The translations under genes and the position numbers were made by a program. From the IMG/VR virus record IMGVR_UViG_3300035701_007077, positions 1-21,653 of that record: a stretch of DNA of 21,653 nt. One strand, written 5' to 3'. Of this stretch, positions 11,904 through 21,653 are shown piece by piece (the stretch's first letter is position 1; each line of letters starts with the position of its first letter). The notes under the pieces are model-generated. The model was not told where the DNA came from, did not search any database, and saw only the letters and a list, made by a program, of their open reading frames with translations. The DNA comes from a virus.

Positions 11904-13142
11904 TTAACCTTGCGTTAACACTTCAATATGTTGATGACATTTCCCTTCATAGTTTCGGAAACCATAGAATTTTGAATTCCCATCAATATAGGAATATTCT
12001 ACAAAATTCGGAAGTAATGATATCTTACCCTTGCTCGTGTCAACCACGAATTGAGGACAAGCATATCCTGATGTGTGACCTCTCAAACCATCAATAATTT
12101 CAAGTCCTTTATCAATTGTGGATTGAAAATGTTGACTCCCCGGAATTTTATCACATGAATATAGATAGTATGGTTTTACTCGAACTTTAAGTAATCTTCT
12201 ATAAAGTAATCTGAATGTTTCCACATTATCATTAATACCTTTTAATAACACACTTTGGGACCCCATAGGAATTCCAGTATCAGCAATCATATTACAGGCT
12301 TTTTGAGTTTCTTCTGTGAGTTCGTCAGGGTGTGTAAAATGAATACTCATGTATACTGGATGATATTTTTTGATAATATTCATAAGTTCAGGTGTAATAC
12401 GCATCGGATTAACAACGGGTATTTTCGTACCAATTCGTATCATTTCAACATGCTCAATGCTTCTTAATCTGTTAAGAATATATTCTATTTGGTCATCTCT
12501 TAATGTAAGCGGGTCCCCACCTGACACAATCACATCCCTAATTTCAGGATGTGTTTCGATATAATCAAACCCTAATTCCCATTCTGAATTGGAAACAGTA
12601 ATTGATGTTCTCTTTGAAACCATATGACTTCTGGTACAATAACGGCAATAAGCAGAACAAAATCCCGTCACAAGAAACAATGCTCTGTCAGGGTATCTAT
12701 GAACGATATTTGGAACAGGTGACATGTTTACCTCATCAAGTGGGTCTTCAGTTTCATTTTTAGTGTGATTCAACTCATTTATAGTAGGGATAATTGTCCT
12801 ATATAATGGATGATTGTCTTCGAGTGTGCTAAGTAAATACGCAAAGTAAGGAGTTATCCTAAAGGGCAGATGGTTTTCTGGCATATTAATAATAGTATCA
12901 TTTTTTTTGTTGCCCAACACCGCATTAAGTCGGTCAGTCTTGGTGATACTGTTCTTGATTTGCCACTTCCAGTCGTTCCATTCTTCGATGGACGCTTCGG
13001 AGTAGTTTTCATTAATAAAATTATTAAGTCGATTATTGGTCGGCAAAGGGGTTTCCTTCTCTGCCGCAGGAGGGACATCAGAGGATTCTGATTCGTTGTG
13101 AGATTGTTGTAAATTCTGTGAATTCATATCATTTTTTATCAT
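11904..13142 (-). CDS. kamA: Lysine 2,3-aminomutase-like radical SAM enzyme
   Basis: The protein (412 residues from ATG 13142; an in-frame ATG at 13127 would give 407) matches the KamA family. The radical-SAM cluster motif is GFCSAYCRYCTR (CX3CX2C; C162, C166, C169). The PLP lysine is likely K373 in SKGKISLLPN. The two acidic residues that bind the lysine side chain in clostridial KAM appear conserved as D331 (YSCDKIPG) and D368 (FVVDTS), favouring lysine over glutamate as substrate. Also present: SGGDPLTL and LRGHTSGYACP. KAM interconverts L-lysine and L-beta-lysine with SAM, PLP and a 4Fe-4S cluster. The N-terminal 40 residues are polar and poorly conserved. In a phage this would be an auxiliary metabolic gene. 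The YjeK/EpmB branch that modifies EF-P is an alternative; no partner ligase is visible. Confidence 0.92.
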   Translation of the reverse strand: MIKNDMNSQNLQQSHNESESSDVPPAAEKETPLPTNNRLNNFINENYSEASIEEWNDWKWQIKNSITKTDRLNAVLGNKKNDTIINMPENHLPFRITPYFAYLLSTLEDNHPLYRTIIPTINELNHTKNETEDPLDEVNMSPVPNIVHRYPDRALFLVTGFCSAYCRYCTRSHMVSKRTSITVSNSEWELGFDYIETHPEIRDVIVSGGDPLTLRDDQIEYILNRLRSIEHVEMIRIGTKIPVVNPMRITPELMNIIKKYHPVYMSIHFTHPDELTEETQKACNMIADTGIPMGSQSVLLKGINDNVETFRLLYRRLLKVRVKPYYLYSCDKIPGSQHFQSTIDKGLEIIDGLRGHTSGYACPQFVVDTSKGKISLLPNFVEYSYIDGNSKFYGFRNYEGKCHQHIEVLTQG

Positions 13143-13235
13143 GAATAAATATAGATAAATTAAATGAAATATCAATGAGAAAAAAGTATTTTTGAAAATA
13201 ATTTTTTATCAGGTATTTATATAGAAATAATCATC

Positions 13236-13684: not shown

Positions 13685-13716
13685 TTTGGCTATCTCATAT
13701 TTATTACATATATTTG
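13685..13716 (+). promoter_or_regulatory. Bacteroidota-type promoter of the tRNA array
   Basis: TTTG (13685-13688), 20 bases, then TATATTTG (13709-13716): an exact fit to the Bacteroidota consensus. The expected transcription start is about 18 bases before the leader ORF. Confidence 0.8.
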
Positions 13717-13739
13717 TACCGTAATTAAAAATTAAAGAC

Positions 13740-13826
13740 ATGAAAAACTTACTCAACTTATCAAACATCCTCTTGGCGGCTGACCTATTATGGGCTGATG
13801 AGGATATATTGCGTAAAGTCGGGTAG
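13740..13826 (+). CDS. Leucine-rich leader peptide
   Basis: A 28-codon ORF directly downstream of the promoter begins MKNLLNLSNILLAADLLWAD and ends after DILRKVG. Eight of 28 codons are Leu (positions 4, 5, 7, 11, 12, 16, 17, 24), written as TTA three times, CTC twice, TTG twice and CTA once. These are the codon types read by the four Leu tRNAs encoded downstream. The last codons (13816-13824) lie inside the sequence able to form the antiterminator. This is the classical layout of an amino-acid attenuation leader. It could alternatively be a chance short ORF or a small hydrophobic peptide with its own role. Confidence 0.6.
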   Translation: MKNLLNLSNILLAADLLWADEDILRKVG

Positions 13827-13871
13827 TGTTATAAACATACTAAAATCTTTCTTAAATGAAATGACCCGACT
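13817..13871 (+). promoter_or_regulatory. Candidate antiterminator pairing of the leader
   Basis: AGTCGGGT at 13817-13824, at the end of the leader ORF, is complementary to ACCCGACT at 13864-13871 and identical to the 3' arm of the following terminator. The two structures are therefore mutually exclusive. A ribosome finishing the ORF would cover the first arm and allow the terminator; a ribosome stalled at the early Leu codons would leave it free to form the antiterminator. Confidence 0.5.
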
Positions 13872-13890
13872 AAACCAAGTCGGGTTTTTT
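13864..13890 (+). terminator. Intrinsic terminator ahead of the tRNA array
   Basis: An 8-bp perfect stem, ACCCGACT (13864-13871) with AGTCGGGT (13878-13885), loop AAACCA, followed by TTTTTGTTTT. It lies between the promoter and the first tRNA, so transcription must pass it for the array to be made. Confidence 0.85.
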
Positions 13891-13898
13891 GTTTTGAG

Positions 13899-13909
13899 GC
13901 TCTTTGACA
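13899..13909 (+). promoter_or_regulatory. boxA-like antitermination site
   Basis: GCTCTTTGACA differs at one base from the classical boxA core GCTCTTTAACA, bound by NusB/S10 in stable-RNA operons. It lies between the terminator and the first tRNA. Similar CTTTGACATATTG sequences precede rRNA and tRNA genes in Bacteroidota. Confidence 0.5.
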
Positions 13910-13922
13910 TATTGGAAAAAAT

Positions 13923-13996
13923 AGTGCGTTGGTGAAGTTGGTTATCATGCCACCCTGTCACGGTGGAGTTCACGGGTTCGAGCCCCGTACGCACTG
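13923..13996 (+). tRNA. tRNA-Asp(GTC)
   Basis: Full cloverleaf: acceptor AGTGCGT/ACGCACT, D-stem GTGA/TCAT, anticodon stem CCACC/GGTGG with loop CTGTCAC (GTC), variable loop AGTTC, T-arm ACGGG-TTCGAGC-CCCGT, discriminator G as expected for Asp. CCA is not encoded (CAA follows). Confidence 0.93.
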
Positions 13997-14058
13997 CAAC
14001 AGAGTTTTGAGCGTCAGGAGGAATCTCTATATATATGGAAAAAAACCGCTGGCAAATT

Positions 14059-14143
14059 AGTTTGTGGGGCTGCTGGGTGTGGCCGCCGGACTGTCACTCC
14101 GGAACCAGAAATGGACAGGTGGGTTCGAACCCCATACAGACTG
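14059..14143 (+). tRNA. tRNA-Asp(GTC)-like with a hairpin in the variable region
   Basis: Acceptor AGTTTGT/ACAGACT, D-stem GGCT/GGCC, anticodon stem CCGGA/TCCGG with loop CTGTCAC (GTC), T-arm GTGGG-TTCGAAC-CCCAT, discriminator G. The variable region is 16 bases and contains a small hairpin (CCA-GAAA-TGG), not expected in a tRNA-Asp. The acceptor resembles that of the first Asp tRNA, so it may be a diverged duplicate. No CCA. Confidence 0.75.
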
Positions 14144-14169
14144 CAATCTCAACCGAAAGTAAGTAGGTT

Positions 14170-14225
14170 ACTGGTGAAGCGGGGATCATAGCCCCAACTT
14201 GAAGGGTTCGTTCCTGACAGGGTAT
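14170..14225 (+). pseudogene. Degenerate tRNA, CAT anticodon arm
   Basis: A GGGG/CCCC stem with the 7-base loop ATCATAG would present CAT (Met or Ile2), followed by AACTT and a weak T-arm (AGG-GTTCGTT-CCT). I find no matching acceptor stem, and the D-arm is poor. Most likely the remnant of a tRNA-Met/Ile2, or a very divergent tRNA. Confidence 0.3.
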
Positions 14226-14254
14226 GGTGACAAAAAACAGTTTGGAGATTAAAT

Positions 14255-14340
14255 GCGATGTTATACAAGTGGTTAAAGTACTCAGACCTTCAATCTGATA
14301 TCCTCCGTGATTTCGAGGGGTTCGAATCCCCCACATCGTA
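14255..14340 (+). tRNA. Class II tRNA with unusual anticodon loop
   Basis: Acceptor GCGATGT/ACATCGT, short D-stem TAC/GTA, anticodon stem TCAGA/TCTGA, variable arm (ATC-CTCCGT-GAT), T-arm AGGGG-TTCGAAT-CCCCC with an outer A:C mismatch, discriminator A. The anticodon loop is CCTTCAA: position 33 is C instead of the near-universal T, and positions 34-36 read TTC (Glu), which does not suit a class II body (normally Leu, Ser or Tyr). The anticodon stem matches the CAGA/TCTG of bacterial tRNA-Tyr. Amino-acid identity cannot be assigned. Confidence 0.65.
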
Positions 14341-14344
14341 CTAA

Positions 14345-14400
14345 AATAAATCTATTTCGAAAGGATTCGATGGGTTCGTATCCCTTACACATTTGACTTT
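14345..14400 (+). pseudogene. Orphan T-arm, tRNA 3' remnant
   Basis: A T-arm-like GGG-TTCGTAT-CCC with TTACACATTTG behind it lies just before the GIY-YIG gene. No matching 5' half is found upstream. It may be the 3' remnant of a tRNA disrupted when the endonuclease gene arrived. Confidence 0.3.
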
Positions 14401-14437
14401 TTAAAATTATTTTGGTATATTTATTATAAAAGCGTTT

Positions 14438-15040
14438 ATGCCAAATTTTAACAAAAACAAAAAATATCATTTTATTTACAAAACCACAAATTTATTGAAT
14501 GGCCAATATTATATTGGAATGCACAGTACATCTAATCTCCACGATGGTTATTTAGGTAGTGGTAAAAGATTAAATTATTCCATAAACAAATATGGAAAAA
14601 AGAATTTTAAAATGGATATTTTAGAACAGTTACCAAGCAGAGAACTACTAATTGAAAAAGAAAAAGAAATAATTAATGTTGAAATACTAAAAGATTTAAA
14701 TTGTCTCAATTTACAAACAGGTGGATTTTCTGGATTTGATTATATTAAAAAACTCAGGACAAATAACCCCGAATATGATAAAAAATGGAGAGCTTTACAA
14801 AGCTCAAAATTAAAAAAGGTTCATCAAAGAGGTAAATTTAAATACGATACATTTACAAATAAAACTCATAGTGACGAAACAAAAAAGTTAATGAGTATCC
14901 AACATAGAGGTAAAGGAATTGGTGAAAAAAATTCACAATATAATACATGTTGGATAACAAAAAACAAAATGAATAAAAAAATAAAAAAATCTGAATTGAG
15001 TTGTTTTTTAGAAAATGGATGGATTCAAGGTAGATTTTAA
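14438..15040 (+). CDS. GIY-YIG homing endonuclease
   Basis: The 200-residue protein has the GIY-YIG nuclease domain at about 10-95: HFIYKTTNLLNGQYYIGMHS (the FIY...YIG pair), DGYLGSGKRLNYSI with the expected basic residue, NKYGKKNF, and a later Glu in LIEKEKEIIN. A NUMOD3-type DNA-binding segment follows (THSDETKKLMSIQHRGKG), and the C-terminus has a Trp-rich repeat ending NGWIQGRF, common in phage Seg-like endonucleases. It is free-standing between a tRNA remnant and tRNA-Glu; these enzymes cut related genomes lacking the gene and spread by repair. TATATTTATTATAAAA lies just upstream of the start. Confidence 0.93.
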   Translation: MPNFNKNKKYHFIYKTTNLLNGQYYIGMHSTSNLHDGYLGSGKRLNYSINKYGKKNFKMDILEQLPSRELLIEKEKEIINVEILKDLNCLNLQTGGFSGFDYIKKLRTNNPEYDKKWRALQSSKLKKVHQRGKFKYDTFTNKTHSDETKKLMSIQHRGKGIGEKNSQYNTCWITKNKMNKKIKKSELSCFLENGWIQGRF

Positions 15041-15043
15041 TAT

Positions 15044-15115
15044 GCTCGGTTCGTCTAGGGGTTAGGACCTCAGGTTTTCATCCTGGAAACACGGGTTCGA
15101 TTCCCGTACCGAGTA
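15044..15115 (+). tRNA. tRNA-Glu(TTC)
   Basis: Acceptor GCTCGGT/ACCGAGT, D-stem GTCT/GGAC, anticodon stem TCAGG/CCTGG with loop TTTTCAT (TTC), T-arm ACGGG-TTCGATT-CCCGT, discriminator A. Starts three bases after the endonuclease stop. CCA not encoded. Confidence 0.93.
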
Positions 15116-15180
15116 CAATGCGTGACAAACCCATCATTAAGTACCAAAGTGAGGGTTAATGTGTAATATAACAAACAATC

Positions 15181-15222
15181 GGTTATAATACCGATATATA
15201 ACCCATATAGGTTATATAACCT
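15181..15222. repeat. Nested GGTTATA/TATAACC inverted repeats
   Basis: The spacer before tRNA-Leu(AAG) contains GGTTATA twice and TATAACC twice, including the perfect 14-bp palindrome AGGTTATATAACCT (15209-15222). Could be an RNA processing hairpin or a protein site; nothing else is visible in this spacer. Confidence 0.5.
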
Positions 15223-15229
15223 ATAATTT

Positions 15230-15311
15230 CTCATTGTGTTGGAATTGGTAGACATGTCAGACTAAGGATCTGGCGCCGAAAGGTTTGAGGGTTCGAGTCC
15301 CTCCAATGAGA
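15230..15311 (+). tRNA. tRNA-Leu(AAG)
   Basis: Class II: acceptor CTCATTG/CAATGAG, Leu-type D-arm (TTGGAATTGGTAGACA), anticodon stem TCAGA/TCTGG with loop CTAAGGA (AAG), variable arm with GCCGAAAGG, T-arm GAGGG-TTCGAGT-CCCTC, discriminator A. A34 is unusual in bacterial tRNA-Leu, where GAG is normal; it would need deamination to inosine to read CUC. Confidence 0.9.
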
Positions 15312-15371
15312 CAAAATGTTTAATGGATTAATCAAAAAGTGAGGAAAAGTGATTAATGGGATAAGCAAAAT

Positions 15372-15455
15372 GCGGATGTGGTGGAATGGTAGACACGCCA
15401 GTCTTAGGAACTGGTGCCGAAAGGCGTGTAGGTTCGAGTCCTATCATCCGCACCA
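15372..15455 (+). tRNA. tRNA-Leu(TAG), CCA encoded
   Basis: Acceptor GCGGATG/CATCCGC, Leu-type D-arm, anticodon stem CCAGT/ACTGG with loop CTTAGGA (TAG), variable arm TGCCGAAAGGCGT, T-arm GTAGG-TTCGAGT-CCTAT, discriminator A followed by genomic CCA, unlike the other tRNAs here. Confidence 0.94.
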
Positions 15456-15529
15456 TCTTACTTGAGGTAGTGAAGCGATTAACTCTCAACACTTAGGCTT
15501 GAAGTAATAGTTCAAGAGTGAGATTAACT

Positions 15530-15615
15530 GCTCGTGTGGCGGAACTGGTAGACGCGACGGACTTAAAATCCGTTGGGCAGTAATGCCCGTGTGGGTTCGA
15601 GTCCCATCATGAGTA
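15530..15615 (+). tRNA. tRNA-Leu(TAA)
   Basis: Acceptor GCTCGTG/CATGAGT with two G-T pairs, Leu-type D-arm (GCGGAACTGGTAGACGC), anticodon stem ACGGA/TCCGT with loop CTTAAAA (TAA), variable arm TGGGCAGTAATGCCC, T-arm GTGGG-TTCGAGT-CCCAT, discriminator A. Confidence 0.94.
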
Positions 15616-15618
15616 CAA

Positions 15619-15683
15619 AATGATTTGGTCGAGCGGTGGTAAGGGGTCGCAACGATAATCGCAGGAGCACCTACCAAATCATT
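15619..15683 (+). other. tRNA-sized RNA element closed by a 10-bp stem, no T-arm
   Basis: AATGATTTGG (15619-15628) and CCAAATCATT (15674-15683) form a perfect 10-bp stem around 45 bases. A tRNA-Ser/Tyr-like D-arm segment (GTCGAGCGGTGGTAAGG) follows the stem, but only about 30 bases remain and no TTCGA T-loop exists. Could be a truncated tRNA or another structured RNA. Confidence 0.4.
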
Positions 15684-15684
15684 C

Positions 15685-15767
15685 AAGTAGTAGATGTCTA
15701 AGTTAAACCAGGCGGCCATAACTTTAATGGTCTTTGGATGTTCGGGTTTTTTTTCGGTCTACTACTT
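15685..15767 (+). other. tRNA-like element closed by a 10-bp stem, degenerate T-arm
   Basis: AAGTAGTAGA (15685-15694) and TCTACTACTT (15758-15767) pair perfectly. Inside, GTCT/AGGC could be a D-stem and GCCAT/ATGGT an anticodon stem with loop AACTTTA (CTT at 34-36, A instead of T at 33). The T-arm region is T-rich and pairs poorly. Likely a degenerate tRNA (perhaps Lys) or a tRNA mimic. Confidence 0.4.
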
Positions 15768-15770
15768 TAC

Positions 15771-15844
15771 GGGCTGTTAGCTCAGTTGGCTAGAGCACCT
15801 GCCTTGCAAGCAGGGGGTCAAGGGTTCGACTCCCTTACGGTCCA
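15771..15844 (+). tRNA. tRNA-Ala(TGC)
   Basis: Acceptor GGGCTGT/ACGGTCC with the Ala identity pair G3-U70, D-arm GCTC-AGTTGGCTA-GAGC, anticodon stem CCTGC/GCAGG with loop CTTGCAA (TGC), T-arm AAGGG-TTCGACT-CCCTT, discriminator A. Confidence 0.95.
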
Positions 15845-15908
15845 CACGGGTGATGTTTTCGCGATGTTTTGAGCTGGCCATTACAGTACAGGAAAAAAAC
15901 AAAGAAAT

Positions 15909-15981
15909 GGGGGCGCATGTACCAAGGTTGGCGATTGAGTTTTGCAAACTTGATGGGACGTTTCGATTACGTTCGTCTCCA
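15909..15981 (+). tRNA. Divergent tRNA-Ala(TGC)
   Basis: Acceptor GGGGGCG/CGTCTCC with G-T at 3-70 (Ala identity), anticodon stem TGAGT/ACTTG with loop TTTGCAA (TGC at 34-36), variable ATGG, T-arm GACGT-TTCGATT-ACGTT, discriminator A. The D-arm pairs poorly. A one-base shift would read GCA (Cys), but the discriminator is A, not the T of tRNA-Cys, and G3-U70 favours Ala. Confidence 0.7.
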
Positions 15982-16028
15982 CATGCACGGTTCACCCTAT
16001 ACGCAGAATTGTTAGGAAGGGTATATTT

Positions 16029-16110
16029 GGCCTTGTGGCGGAACTGGTAGACGCACTTCACTCAAAACGAAGTACCGAAAGGTGTGTGGGTTCGAGTCCC
16101 ATCTTGGCCA
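16029..16110 (+). tRNA. tRNA-Leu(CAA)
   Basis: Leu-type D-arm (GCGGAACTGGTAGACGC), anticodon stem CTTCA/CGAAG (one A:C mismatch) with loop CTCAAAA (CAA), variable arm with CCGAAAGG, T-arm GTGGG-TTCGAGT-CCCAT, discriminator A. The acceptor GGCCTTG/CTTGGCC has two T:T mismatches, so folding or charging may be weakened. Confidence 0.85.
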
Positions 16111-16115
16111 CTAAT

Positions 16116-16248
16116 GTTATTCGTGGAGGAATGGAATACTCGCCTGACTAAACCCTAAAAATGGATTATCTATGTGGGCTGAATCGGGTACGTCGGCAGG
16201 ATAGTCTGCTACAGACGCGACTGCGGGTTCGAGACCCGTCGAATGACA
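16116..16248 (+). other. Interrupted tRNA-like element
   Basis: GTTATTCG (16116-16123) pairs with CGAATGAC (16240-16247, one G-T pair), and a good T-arm (GCGGG-TTCGAGA-CCCGT) precedes the 3' strand. A D-arm-like GAG/CTC follows the 5' strand. The middle is far too long (132 bases in all) and contains no clear anticodon arm; a hairpin GTCTG-CTA-CAGAC lies near 16204-16216. Options: a tRNA with a small insertion or intron, or two fused remnants. Confidence 0.45.
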
Positions 16249-16255
16249 TTAAAAT

Positions 16256-16338
16256 GCGCAAGTGGCAGAGTGGTCGATTGCACGAGTCTCCAAAACTCGT
16301 AGAGAAATCTCACAGGGGTCCAAATCCTCTCTTGCGTG
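16256..16338 (+). tRNA. Class II tRNA with CCA anticodon
   Basis: Acceptor GCGCAAG/CTTGCGT, anticodon stem CGAGT/ACTCG with loop CTCCAAA (CCA at 34-36, Trp), variable arm GAG-AAAT-CTC, T-arm AGGGG-TCCAAAT-CCTCT with T-loop TCC instead of TTC, discriminator G. The long variable arm and G73 suit tRNA-Ser, whereas CCA is the Trp anticodon; normal tRNA-Trp is class I. Identity is ambiguous. Confidence 0.75.
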
Positions 16339-16412
16339 CTATGGTAAAATTAATTTTACCAAAAACATCTGTTTTACTATTCGACCTGATATTTATAATA
16401 AAATATAGTATC

Positions 16413-17147
16413 ATGAATAGTAAAACAGATAATTTTTCAGATAACGAAATTATAGGAATTCTCGATCAATGTAGATCCTTTAGAGAAGTATTAGGAAAAA
16501 TCGGATATAGTAGTAATGGAAGTGGAGGGTACAGTCTTCTTAAACAACAACTCGGAAAACGAAACATTCAAATTCCAAAATACCATTATTACGGTGATAC
16601 TAAAAAGAGGTCATCAATTCCCTTAATCGAAATATTAATTGAAAATTCAACATATACTAATAGATCAGGATTGAAAAGACGATTAGTTAATGAAGGACTA
16701 CTCGAATATAAATGTAAATGTGGTAATATTGGATTGTGGGAAGGAAAACGACTATCATTACAATTGGAGCATAAGAACGGAAAAAATAATGATAATAGAA
16801 TTGAAAACTTGGAATTTTTATGCCCAAACTGTCATTCTCAATCTGAAACATTTTCTGGTAAAAATAATAGATGTTCCAAAAGAGTTAAAAAAATAAGAAA
16901 GTCCAGAAGTAGTGATAATTTTTGCATATGTGGAAACCCTATAAAAAATAGAAGTACCCATTGTAAAGATTGTCATCATGAGAATTTACGAAAAATTAAA
17001 TCAAGGCCGTCATATGGAGAACTAATTAATGATATTACATTTTCAAACTATACATCAACTGGAAAAAAATATGGAGTATCAGATAATACAATACGAAAAT
17101 GGATTAAAATATATGAAAAAGAAATGGACATTCATCAATCATTTTAA
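16413..17147 (+). CDS. HNH homing endonuclease with zinc ribbons
   Basis: The frame is open from 16161, but that would run through the preceding tRNA. The ATG at 16413 (MNSKTDNFSDNEIIGIL) gives a 244-residue protein of normal layout. Residues 1-60 form an HTH-like module common in phage HNH enzymes. The HNH core is at 100-147: zinc cysteines C101/C103 and C137/C140, the catalytic H120 in LQLEHKNG, IENLEFLCPNCHSQ with H141. A second CxC...CxxC ribbon lies at 171-187 and a C-terminal helix-turn-helix at 215-233 (YGVSDNTIRKWIK). It sits inside the tRNA array, like the GIY-YIG gene, and GATATTTATAAT lies about 20 bases before its start. Confidence 0.92.
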   Translation: MNSKTDNFSDNEIIGILDQCRSFREVLGKIGYSSNGSGGYSLLKQQLGKRNIQIPKYHYYGDTKKRSSIPLIEILIENSTYTNRSGLKRRLVNEGLLEYKCKCGNIGLWEGKRLSLQLEHKNGKNNDNRIENLEFLCPNCHSQSETFSGKNNRCSKRVKKIRKSRSSDNFCICGNPIKNRSTHCKDCHHENLRKIKSRPSYGELINDITFSNYTSTGKKYGVSDNTIRKWIKIYEKEMDIHQSF

Positions 17148-17289: not shown

Positions 17290-17496
17290 TTAATCAGTTA
17301 ATAATATGGGTTCTTTCGGAGTAACAATCCACAATACGATATATGTTATAAGAAAGAACGGACACGCAAATAACCCACCCATTAAAAAGATTAATCTCCA
17401 AAATGTCGGATCAATGTTAAAAAAGGTTCCAAGTCCGCCGCAAACGCCGCCGATCCATTTGTTAGTTCTACTTCTGTACAATTTTTTCGTTTCCAT
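17290..17496 (-). CDS. PspC-domain membrane protein
   Basis: The 68-residue protein is a single PspC domain: KLYRSRTNKWIGGVCGGLGT then FFNIDPTFWRLIF, a glycine-rich amphipathic start followed by one long hydrophobic stretch (about 33-60). PspC domains sit in the inner membrane and take part in envelope stress sensing in bacteria; small stand-alone versions are common in Bacteroidota. No pspA or other stress gene is nearby. A phage copy might protect the membrane or modulate host stress signalling (inference). Confidence 0.9.
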   Translation of the reverse strand: METKKLYRSRTNKWIGGVCGGLGTFFNIDPTFWRLIFLMGGLFACPFFLITYIVLWIVTPKEPILLTD

Positions 17497-17566
17497 AATT
17501 AATAGTTTTGCATAAAGACGGAAGAATGTGAAAAATGCTGTACGAAAATAAAAATATTTTTTCCAA

Positions 17567-18472: not shown

Positions 18473-21400
18473 TTAATGTAAGAAAGTCACATCACCTACT
18501 TTATCAAAATACGTACCATCGATATATCGGCCAGTTGCTTTCCACACATATACACCTTGAACAGCTAAACTCCCATTAGCAAAATATCCGTCCCATCCTT
18601 TATGCAAATCATAACTTTCATATATAAGAACGCCCCATCTATTGAAAATCTGTAATTTATATTCCAATACATTCTCAAAATGAGGTCTGAATACCGCATC
18701 ATCTACTTGACCTTCTGTCCAATATCCACCCGTTGGCCCCGATTGGTTCCAAATAAATGCATTAGGAAACGCTAATTTCCCAACATTATATTGTACTTTT
18801 ATTGGCGTTGTTGAACTTAATGAATCTATACACCCATCTTTAGATGTTACAATTAGTGTAACATTATAAACCCCTTCTGCTGTATACTTATGCCATGGAT
18901 TATCTTCAATAGAAGTAGCGCCGTCTCCAAATTTCCATAATCTATATGCGTCGTACATTGAATAATTATAAAATACCACTACTTGTGAATTATTAGTAAC
19001 TTCTGTTGGGTATATGGTAAAAGAAGCAGATGGATTTTGAAAAACAGTAACTAATCTTTTGCTAGTCGTTTGACCACTTACATTTGTGGCGATTAATCTA
19101 ACAACATACTTTCCAGGGGTATAATACACATGTATTGGATTTTCCTCAACGGAAAATACATTATCACCAAAGTCCCATAAATATGAACTTGCCCCAACAC
19201 TATTATTCACAAACGGGACGTTCAATGGAGAACATCCTGTAGTATCAGGATCAAATTTTGATATCGGAAGAGGCGGCATGATAACTTTAATATGTATGGT
19301 ATCAAATGCAAGACATCCAAATCTATCAGGAATTGTTTGATATTTAACAACATGTATTCCTAATCCCGCTGCGTTCGGATTAAACATATTTCCTGTTATC
19401 CCGTTCCCCGAAAATACTCCATTGATAGGTGTTGCATTTAACACCACTGGTGGTTCATTAATAAACAGGGTTCGCACAGGGGTTATTTGTACTATAGGTA
19501 CGGGCATGACAGATATTGTTATTTGATCCACATCAACGCATCCATAAGAATTAGTTATAGTGTAAATAACAACATGATCTCCAACACCAAGTACAGATGG
19601 GTTAAAAACATTAGTGGAAATAGATCCCGACCATATTCCTCCAGTCTGTCGAGTTGTTAAAGTTACTGGTGAATTGTTAACACACATAGTATCAACTGGA
19701 ATTATTGTGGCATCTGGTGATGCAACAACATCTATAGTTATATTATCTGTATCGAAACATCCACTCGAATTAGTGATATTATATGTTATTAAATGAGAAC
19801 CAACCCCAGCTATTCTAGGATTAAAAATATTTCCACTAACACCCTTTCCAAGCCATGTTCCGCCTGAATCCTGAGCTGCTAGTGTAACATTTGAATCATT
19901 AATACATACGACGCCAACAGGAGTTATTGTCGCATCTGGCACGGGTAAAATAGTAATAGTTATTTGATCAACATCACTACAAAATGGATCGGCAATAAAA
20001 TAAGTTATAACATGATTACCTATTCCTGCAACGGCTGGATCAAATGTGTTACCTATAACTCCCTTTCCTGACCATACGCCGCCCAAATCTTTACTTGTCA
20101 AAGTTATTATGGAATTATTAAGACATAATGGGGGTACAGGTGTTATTGTGGCATCTGGAGCAGGAACGACATCAATTGTAATTTCATCCTCATCGGAACA
20201 ACCATTAGCGTTAATAATATTATATTTTATTAGATGACTACCTATACCTGCAACAACAGGATCAAATGTATTCCCAATAACCCCATTCCCTGTCCATACT
20301 CCGCCTATGTCATGCGAAATAAGGGTTATTTTAGAAATGGTGTCAATACATACGACGCCAACAGGAGTTATAGTTGCGTCGGGAACAGGATAAACAGTAA
20401 TAGTTATTTCGTCAAAATCATTACAATTTGCATTAATTATAGAATACCGTACCCGATGATTTCCAGGGCCAGCAATAAATGGATCAAATGTGTTTCCTAT
20501 AACGCCAGTTCCCGACCATGTTCCACCTGGATCATGAGCATTTAATATGACGGGCGCAGCATCAGCACACATCGGATTAACAGGAGTTATTGTTGCATCT
20601 GGAGCTATAACCAATATAGATGTTTGATCTGAACTTGCACATCCATTTACATCAACTATAATATATGTTATAATATGATTTCCAATACCAGCTATTCCAG
20701 GGTCAAACATATTTCCAACAACGCCTAAGCCAGACCATATACCGCCAGGATCATGTGCTGTTAGTAATACCCTTGGACCTGTGAAACATTGAATTCCTAT
20801 TGGAGTTATAGTAGCATCTGGCAACGGCACAACCGTAATATTAATCTGATCGATATCCGTACATCCACCTATTCCAGTTAAAGAATAAGTTATAGTGTGA
20901 GTTCCAACCCCAGCTATAGCAGGATCAAATCTATTTCCTCTGAAAACACCTGGACCAGACCATGTTCCGCCAGGATCATGTGCAGTTAAGATAATTGGAG
21001 CTCCATTAAGGCACATAGGGCTAACAGGGGTTATAGTAGCATCAGGATATGGCACAATAAGTATTATTGCCGTAGTTACCACAGGTGGATGGTCGCCATT
21101 TAAAACATCAACAGGTGGTCCAGGTATGTTAGGGTCGTCATATGGGTTACAATAATTCCAGTTTCTTAATGTTACCTGAAAATATTGTCCTACTAATTTA
21201 TCGTTGGCAACATTAATGACATCAGACCAAACACCTGAACCTGTGACAGGGCCTGGAAGAGTAATTACAGGTGCAGTATAGGGAAAGATTCTTGGCGTTC
21301 CATTAATAGTTACTGGAATACCTGTCATTGTTATATCAGTTCCATATATCCATTGTATCCATCGGGTAAATAAATTTGGTACATCATTTTCTTGAGGTGG

Positions 21401-21653
21401 CACACAGTTAAATTGTGTTAGATCCTGAAAACGAACATTATCTCCATTACCTACACATATAGGATAAACCGTTGGATTAATATGCATTTCTCCGCCATTA
21501 TGGTCGTCATCATCCCATACAGTAACTATTTGTTCTTGTGCAGAAGAACTACAAAGTACACCGTTAACAACTAGAGTTGCTTGAGGATGATAATTACAAA
21601 CATTTCCAGCAGATGTATATATATGTGATAATGTTGTTTGATAAACACCAGGC
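18473..21653 (-). CDS. Giant secreted repeat protein with PKD domains and CHU_C/T9SS type B-like end, 5' partial
   Basis: The frame has no stop up to the right edge: 55 further codons upstream of the in-frame Met at 21487 read through, with VTVWDDDDHNGGEMHINP spanning that Met, so the true start is outside the window. Counting from that Met: residues 1-147 are a Cys-containing head (PICVGNGDNVRFQDLTQFNC); 148-739 are eight tandem repeats of about 74 residues, most beginning PDATITPV; 740-819 and 820-899 are PKD domains (YLWDFGD, RLWKFGD); 900-1004 is a gliding-motility-associated C-terminal domain (IFNRWGVLIYES, GWDGYFANGS, GVYVWKATG), the sorting signal of T9SS type B cargo. Likely surface-exposed or secreted adhesin-like protein. 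In a phage it could be a fibre or a morphon expressed on the host. Confidence 0.9.
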   Translation of the reverse strand, partial: PGVYQTTLSHIYTSAGNVCNYHPQATLVVNGVLCSSSAQEQIVTVWDDDDHNGGEMHINPTVYPICVGNGDNVRFQDLTQFNCVPPQENDVPNLFTRWIQWIYGTDITMTGIPVTINGTPRIFPYTAPVITLPGPVTGSGVWSDVINVANDKLVGQYFQVTLRNWNYCNPYDDPNIPGPPVDVLNGDHPPVVTTAIILIVPYPDATITPVSPMCLNGAPIILTAHDPGGTWSGPGVFRGNRFDPAIAGVGTHTITYSLTGIGGCTDIDQINITVVPLPDATITPIGIQCFTGPRVLLTAHDPGGIWSGLGVVGNMFDPGIAGIGNHIITYIIVDVNGCASSDQTSILVIAPDATITPVNPMCADAAPVILNAHDPGGTWSGTGVIGNTFDPFIAGPGNHRVRYSIINANCNDFDEITITVYPVPDATITPVGVVCIDTISKITLISHDIGGVWTGNGVIGNTFDPVVAGIGSHLIKYNIINANGCSDEDEITIDVVPAPDATITPVPPLCLNNSIITLTSKDLGGVWSGKGVIGNTFDPAVAGIGNHVITYFIADPFCSDVDQITITILPVPDATITPVGVVCINDSNVTLAAQDSGGTWLGKGVSGNIFNPRIAGVGSHLITYNITNSSGCFDTDNITIDVVASPDATIIPVDTMCVNNSPVTLTTRQTGGIWSGSISTNVFNPSVLGVGDHVVIYTITNSYGCVDVDQITISVMPVPIVQITPVRTLFINEPPVVLNATPINGVFSGNGITGNMFNPNAAGLGIHVVKYQTIPDRFGCLAFDTIHIKVIMPPLPISKFDPDTTGCSPLNVPFVNNSVGASSYLWDFGDNVFSVEENPIHVYYTPGKYVVRLIATNVSGQTTSKRLVTVFQNPSASFTIYPTEVTNNSQVVVFYNYSMYDAYRLWKFGDGATSIEDNPWHKYTAEGVYNVTLIVTSKDGCIDSLSSTTPIKVQYNVGKLAFPNAFIWNQSGPTGGYWTEGQVDDAVFRPHFENVLEYKLQIFNRWGVLIYESYDLHKGWDGYFANGSLAVQGVYVWKATGRYIDGTYFDKVGDVTFLH
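19271..21046 (-). repeat. Eight tandem ~222-bp repeats encoding Ig-like units
   Basis: Unit boundaries in residues counted from the Met at 21487: 148, 223, 296, 369, 444, 517, 591, 664, end 739. Each unit has PDATITPV, a Cys near position 12, GG-x-W near 26-29, G-x-GV-x-GN-x-F, AG-x-G-x-H, and a second Cys near 60. Units 7 and 8 are most diverged and unit 8 has lost its first Cys. The paired cysteines suggest one disulphide per unit outside the cytoplasm. Confidence 0.92.

Follow-up and report, generated by a model that had tools for sequence, protein, structure and literature searches.

Phage leader peptides that list the tRNAs of their own arrays: a probable ribosome-mediated attenuator of tRNA operons

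A tRNA array in a phage genome fragment is preceded by a short open reading frame whose codons correspond to the tRNAs of that array, and the end of this frame carries a copy of one arm of the intrinsic terminator that follows. We consider it very probable that this is a ribosome-mediated transcription attenuator through which the phage tRNA operon responds to shortage of its own tRNAs. The locus lies in a 21.6-kb virus record (the whole stretch analysed, here called the window), a metagenomic phage fragment of Bacteroidota type. The initial annotation had described the locus as a candidate leucine attenuator controlling a tRNA array. Leader-peptide attenuation of the array is strongly supported by the sequence comparisons reported here (a conserved leader, a covarying arm and a match between codons and array), but the leucine specificity did not hold up, as codons for every one of the five amino acids in the array (Leu, Ala, Asp, Glu and Trp) occur in the leader, and the model of a Leu sensor making Leu tRNA is too narrow.

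In the mechanism that we propose, RNA polymerase would transcribe a short ORF holding codons for the tRNAs of the array. With all of these tRNAs available the ribosome would reach the stop codon and cover the antiterminator arm, so that the terminator folds and the array stays off; were a single one of these tRNAs short (depleted, cleaved or uncharged), the ribosome would stall upstream, and the free arm would pair with the 5′ arm of the terminator and let the polymerase read through into the tRNAs. A host-type boxA would recruit antitermination machinery for passage through the long structured array. Each leader would in this way be an OR-gate over exactly the tRNAs of its own array. Stalling as the ON state is consistent with the geometry of the leader, and the trigger would most plausibly be that host tRNAs are lost in the course of infection, for instance to tRNA-cleaving defences.

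Results

Anatomy of the locus

All elements of the locus lie on the plus strand of the window, in the order promoter, 28-codon ORF, antiterminator arm, terminator, boxA and ten tRNAs, and each was found where the annotation had placed it. The promoter (13685–13716) was identified by sequence match to TTTG-N20-TAnnTTTG, the Bacteroidota promoter consensus used for comparison, which it fits better than it does sigma-70. Upstream of the 44 leader clusters described below the full motif occurs nine times (0.1 in shuffles) and TAnnTTTG alone 20 times (4.1 in shuffles). A CHU_C type IX secretion signal domain, found by domain search in one window protein, points to a host among the Bacteroidota.

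The leader ORF (13740–13826; peptide MKNLLNLSNILLAADLLWADEDILRKVG, then the stop codon) has 19 other distinct homologues and a frame-specific match to its array. Eight of its 28 codons specify Leu (three TTA, two CTC, two TTG and one CTA), as had been claimed, and it also holds codons for Ala, Asp, Glu and Trp, the remaining amino acids of the array. These putative sensor codons (Leu, Ala, Asp, Trp and Glu, with others interspersed) extend from 13749 to 13805 by positional match to the array tRNAs, and the last of them for Asp (13803–13805) starts 14 nt ahead of the antiterminator arm AGTCGGGT (13817–13824). The arm, a conserved copy of the terminator 3′ arm, sits within the final codons of the ORF and is the exact complement of the terminator 5′ arm ACCCGACT (13864–13871). 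The terminator itself (13863–13886; 3′ arm 13878–13885) comprises nine pairs, a loop of 6 and a T run, with a predicted energy of about −14.3 kcal/mol. It is followed by a boxA-type antitermination site, CTCTTTGACATATTGG (13900–13915), near-identical to the Bacteroidota motif GTTCTTTGACATNTTGGAA. Between arm and terminator, MFE folds give a small A+T-rich hairpin, TTTC...GAAA (13848–13861), with similar hairpins in related leaders; it is formed by the motif CTCCTTTCTT, conserved in leaders of this Leu type, and may be a pause hairpin or a stabiliser of the antiterminator.

The array (13923–16339, its first tRNA beginning at 13923) was read by ARAGORN as Asp, Asp, Glu, Glu, Leu(aag), Leu(tag), Leu(taa), Ala, Leu(caa) and Trp, so that the four annotated Leu anticodons are all present, and all ten tRNAs also exceed the Rfam RF00005 threshold. 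A gene for a GIY-YIG homing-type endonuclease (Pfam PF01541, E = 7e-5, over the cut-off) lies within it at 14438–15040.

Several other features of the region were recorded. The tRNA-Leu at 15230–15312 has an AAG anticodon (A34), frequent in Leu-type arrays, and would need deamination to read CTC. The tRNAs with Asp and Glu anticodons at 14059–14144 and 14255–14341 are 86–87 nt long, with apparently long class II-like variable arms and low scores with the Rfam tRNA model (34 and 38 bits); similar long second Asp/Glu tRNA genes were seen again in two relatives (L004 and L068). A spacer, CAATCTCAACCGAAAGTAAGTAGGTTACTGGTGAAGCGGGG, which is tRNA-like yet gave no tRNA call, is common to two diverged arrays, that of the window (14145–14190) and that of L005 (about 17450–17510). 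An ORF at 16161–17147 with weak similarity to HNH endonucleases overlaps the last tRNA, and its translation probably starts beyond the array. On the minus strand are genes for a PKD protein of 1004 aa that carries a type IX secretion signal domain (18473–21487) and a lysine-2,3-aminomutase-like radical SAM protein (11904–13175).

Relatives of the Leu-type leader and covariation

With the ClpB-like ATPase of the window as the starting point, 80 related viral loci were obtained, and these and later pattern matches were scanned for short ORFs carrying a terminator copy. This gave the 19 further distinct leaders of the Leu type. All have a terminator and tRNAs after them, with a boxA, and their consensus is MK-LLDIL...LLWADED-x4-VG, in which the Trp/Ala/Asp/Glu block is as strongly conserved as the Leu codons. 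Val codons are an addition of homologous leaders, usually in company with a tRNA-Val in the array; neither the window leader nor those of L002/L003 have any before the arm, and none of these arrays includes a tRNA-Val. Two leaders (L102 and L259) are exceptions in that they retain Val codons with no tRNA-Val found in their arrays. Relatives lacking the Leu codons or the arm had been named in advance as evidence that would count against attenuation; they were searched for, and the model came through. Five pattern matches (L083, L088, L089, L090 and L091) were rejected as chance. The neighbouring 89-aa gene, used as query, gave no relatives. In named phages tblastn of the window leader peptide found nothing, blastn of the window leader region returned weak unrelated matches only and that of the leader regions of other families no matches; the whole of one relative (L144) matched named phages only in its tRNA genes.

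In L086 the arm sequence GTCGGG is kept despite a changed reading frame over the arm (L-S-G, within ...TLSG..., instead of V-G), and in L324 all three arms have changed together (GTCGAG/CTCGAC/GTCGAG) with pairing retained. Compensatory changes of the kind that the annotation had suggested looking for were found in the flanks of the arm, where 34 of 60 positions form Watson–Crick pairs with the 5′ arm compared with 21.4 ± 3.7 in shuffles (p = 0.0005, an optimistic value as the shuffles ignore relatedness), whereas the same shuffle-based test at the equivalent terminator positions gave p = 0.31. As the arm flanks covary while their terminator counterparts do not, selection on the antiterminator itself is favoured.

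Arm copies and fold energies across loci

In all fetched loci taken together, a copy of at least 6 nt of the terminator arm lies 30–65 nt upstream of 81% of the 88 terminators found 0–60 nt before a boxA, but of only 6.1% of 479 control terminators without nearby tRNAs (9.7% in shuffles), which bears out the annotated upstream copy as being beyond chance. Mean predicted energies over the clusters are similar for the antiterminator (−17.2 kcal/mol) and the terminator (−14.8 kcal/mol), and across all clusters the loop between the two arms has greater stability than in shuffles (p = 2e-5). The enrichment, the covariation and these energies agree with mutually exclusive structures that have one arm in common. 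A general protector hairpin was not found, duplexes with the arm being overall no stronger than shuffles (p = 0.19); the leaders are therefore not assigned to the trp-type subclass, and the untranslated default may be ON, unlike that of trp.

Leaders spell out their arrays

Scanning for the boxA motif, alone and with a terminator tail, revealed many further arrays with unrelated leaders and the same anatomy. Leaders were selected by geometry only, never by peptide, and the 84 obtained fall into 44 clusters (unrelated families), with contig or locus ends truncating many of the arrays. The correspondence is often legible by eye: MSNIINIQPQPQHHPQGC precedes Pro, His, Gln and Gln tRNAs, MKNLLNNGRPQQHPQVDEWGYYV precedes Arg, Pro, His and Gln tRNAs, and MKNLTNISLISTCLLPSSRTQRPHGNR.. 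precedes Cys, Gln, Pro, Arg, Thr, His, Met, Ser and Leu tRNAs. Over the whole set, amino acids of a leader's own array make up 0.67 of its residues compared with 0.495 ± 0.017 for permuted arrays (z = 10.4, 0 of 20000 permutations). When only the sensor region is counted the values are 0.78 and 0.53 (z = 10.3) in the coding frame, with control z values of 0.6 and −1.4 for the +1 and +2 frames, −1.7 for the antisense strand, −0.4 for residues from the arm onward and −1.1 for upstream DNA. A comparison matched for array size gave p = 9e-8 (Wilcoxon). The match extends to isoacceptors, the codon family for Leu, Ser and Arg agreeing in 57 of 80 cases (42.2 ± 4.1 expected, p = 0.0003), and 83.5% of array amino acids are present in the array's own leader compared with 59% in other leaders.

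The match is also limited in position. Its excess is 0.21–0.33 at codons −4 to −12 relative to the arm, 0.13–0.17 at −3 and −2, and zero from −1, and it ends 1–3 codons ahead of the arm across clusters; this fits the signature expected if a ribosome stalled at a sensor codon has to keep its leading edge clear of the arm. No correspondence with the array is seen in the first five to six leader codons. Individual leaders depart from the rule: L042 (leader at 14333) has Gln, Thr, Ser, Asn and Pro codons before an array confined to Leu, Arg, Met and Gly, and may represent a decayed array, missed tRNAs or an exception, while in L096, L180, L305 and L307 the match is no better than chance and some of these may be false detections.

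Predictions and held-out leaders

Array predictions were written down before more DNA was fetched. The new DNA held all of the tRNAs predicted for L099 (Thr, Ser, Gly, Tyr) and L265 (Asn, Ile, Arg) and part of those for L115, and the prediction for L042 failed; L160 and L264 were left out of the tally since their arrays are cut by contig ends. A held-out set was formed from the last two scans, run with the pipeline frozen and restricted to leaders unlike any seen before. In these six clusters the match was 0.950 compared with 0.615 (p = 0.0016, near the smallest value possible), one example being MNNKIVHQVIWHVIT before Trp, Trp, Val, His, Ile, Ile and Val tRNAs. The T4 tRNA region, taken as a negative control, yielded no leader.

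Huge phages

The design is found again and again in phages of Bacteroidota-type bacteria, and it extends to the largest known phage genomes. Three public huge-phage records (LR756501, a 735-kb genome, LR756502 and LR745206) carry many tRNAs in separate arrays, which were read without recourse to boxA, eight leaders coming from the pipeline and five being recognized by eye among upstream ORFs. In LR756501 there are five arrays, and a different leader matches each of them. The Met, Gln, Ile(ATA) and Glu tRNAs are preceded by ..NMIQEQMQQIQ.., the Ile, Cys, Asp, Asn and Tyr tRNAs by ..YNDYCIND.., five Leu tRNAs by a leader in which all six Leu codons occur, the Trp, His, Phe, Lys and Ser tRNAs by ..SKHSKHFSSSSKWF.. 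and the Arg, Thr, Val, Ala, Gly and Pro tRNAs by ..FTPAPAVAFRRGTGTGTGT..; the five sets jointly comprise all twenty amino acids. The true pairing of leaders with arrays ranks first of 120, 24 and 24 in the three genomes (5, 4 and 4 pairs), the last two, LR756502 and LR745206, having similar leaders and not being independent. Apart from the five arrays, LR756501 has two tandem tRNAs with CTA (amber-reading) anticodons at 690585–690737 (L452).

boxA and phage specificity

The motif GTTCTTTGACATNTTGGAA occurs in Bacteroidota genomes, where the four loci checked against Rfam are rRNA operons; in one of the loci (L325) it lies between a spacer tRNA and 23S. The window site thus has its sequence in common with the host rRNA boxA and would be an antitermination site recruiting Nus factors. 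A terminator precedes boxA at none of 80 host sites. The strict terminator-plus-boxA pattern had no match in 84,980 bacterial and archaeal species genomes and a looser one none in 395 Bacteroidota genomes, both being exact patterns that variants may escape, so that within the limits of exact patterns the combination appears to be phage-specific. The exact boxA is absent from the Tenacibaculum phages PTm1 and pT24 and from LR756501, whose arrays have variant sites such as TTCTTTGACGTATTG.

Alternative explanations

One competitor to an attenuator reading all tRNAs of its array is an attenuator in which only the Leu codons count and scarce charged Leu-tRNA turns on mainly Leu tRNAs. It would account for a leader with eight Leu codons in 28 ahead of four Leu tRNAs with matching anticodons, and for the Leu-only array of the 735-kb phage with its Leu-rich leader, but not for a Trp/Ala/Asp/Glu block conserved as strongly as the Leu codons, or for unrelated leaders that are not Leu-rich and match other tRNA sets, such as QPQPQHHPQ before Pro/His/Gln tRNAs, and we regard it as very unlikely. 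It is also highly improbable that the leaders are general translation-stress switches, in which any slowed or blocked translation frees the arm and the particular codons are incidental. Attenuation through a leader peptide is known for ribosome-targeting drugs, for example bmrCD (PMC4191407), and an architecture with no protector hairpin would also be triggered by inhibitors or absent initiation, but such a switch leaves the frame-specific, isoacceptor-level match in dozens of unrelated leaders without a reason.

The conservation of the peptide within the Leu-type family, including LLWADED, could instead mean that the ORFs encode functional small proteins and that the terminator copy is a by-product. 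We give this almost no weight, as the peptides of different families are unrelated to one another and follow their arrays, no such correspondence is seen for residues at or beyond the arm, and the GTCGGG arm of L086 survived a change of frame. Equally, A+T-rich DNA commonly contains short Leu-rich ORFs and 8-nt repeats, so that single examples could arise by chance or as artefacts of detection, and the pipeline does admit false positives (e.g. L180 and L096); for the set as a whole this is refuted by the permutation, control-terminator, frame, pairing and held-out controls, and in close relatives the pattern of the window is kept rather than lost, which makes such an origin extremely improbable. 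Attenuation by shortage of any of the array's own tRNAs is the reading that we carry forward.

Discussion

The trp, his, leu and ilv amino-acid operons are controlled by leader-peptide (ribosome-mediated) transcription attenuators. The phage leaders resemble these in several respects. A short ORF with a conserved coding frame separates the promoter from the intrinsic terminator, its putative regulatory codons correspond to what the controlled genes produce, antiterminator and terminator exclude each other, and a ribosome halted ahead of the arm would be expected to allow readthrough; the presence of several amino acids in one leader is a trait that the phage leaders share with the ilv type. 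They differ from amino-acid-operon attenuators in being phage-borne, in controlling noncoding tRNA genes, in having a boxA after the terminator, and in that they would sense up to ~18 tRNAs at once and track the array case by case; from the trp type they differ also in showing no general protector hairpin. The Rfam amino-acid-operon leaders (Leu, Trp and His) had no match in the window up to E = 0.5. There is a likeness to T-box riboswitches in that tRNA availability would set expression through a terminator/antiterminator switch, but a T-box recognizes uncharged tRNA by direct binding, independently of translation, whereas the specifiers of the phage leaders would be codons of an ORF; no Rfam match to a T-box (sequence and specifier loop) was found in the window. 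The arrays open with a motif nearly identical to that of boxA/Nus antitermination in rRNA operons but, unlike the host boxA, the phage site follows an attenuator terminator.

Phage tRNAs have been found to counter tRNA-cleaving or tRNA-targeting defences (PMC10264068; PMC11555353). The problem addressed is the same, supply of tRNA when host tRNAs are lost, but here supply would be conditional on the loss. The main texts of those two papers make no mention of attenuation or leaders, nor does the huge-phage paper (PMC7162821) mention a leader or attenuation. In open-access full text, the scope of our search, we found no account of phage tRNA arrays being controlled by a leader peptide. The kind of mechanism is known; the novelty, as far as we have found, lies in the tRNA-gene target, the number of simultaneous inputs and a code that differs from array to array.

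The reason for which phages carry tRNAs has been a matter of debate for decades, the choice being between codon compensation and evasion of defences. A sensor that reads the array's own tRNAs would indicate the purpose of the array, namely replacement of tRNAs that are running short. Attenuation, familiar from biosynthetic operons, would be extended to an operon of noncoding RNAs that takes many inputs at once. The code is readable, in that the leader peptide predicts the array, as was checked on newly fetched DNA; the question is open to direct testing with reporters, and the leaders offer ready-made candidate sensors for individual tRNAs. We think it likely that Bacteroidota phages, from those on small contigs to one of 735 kb, have several tRNA operons, each with a codon checklist, in which any one shortage would induce the whole operon; this would amount to a repair response induced by tRNA loss, probably directed against tRNA-cleaving defences and host shutdown.
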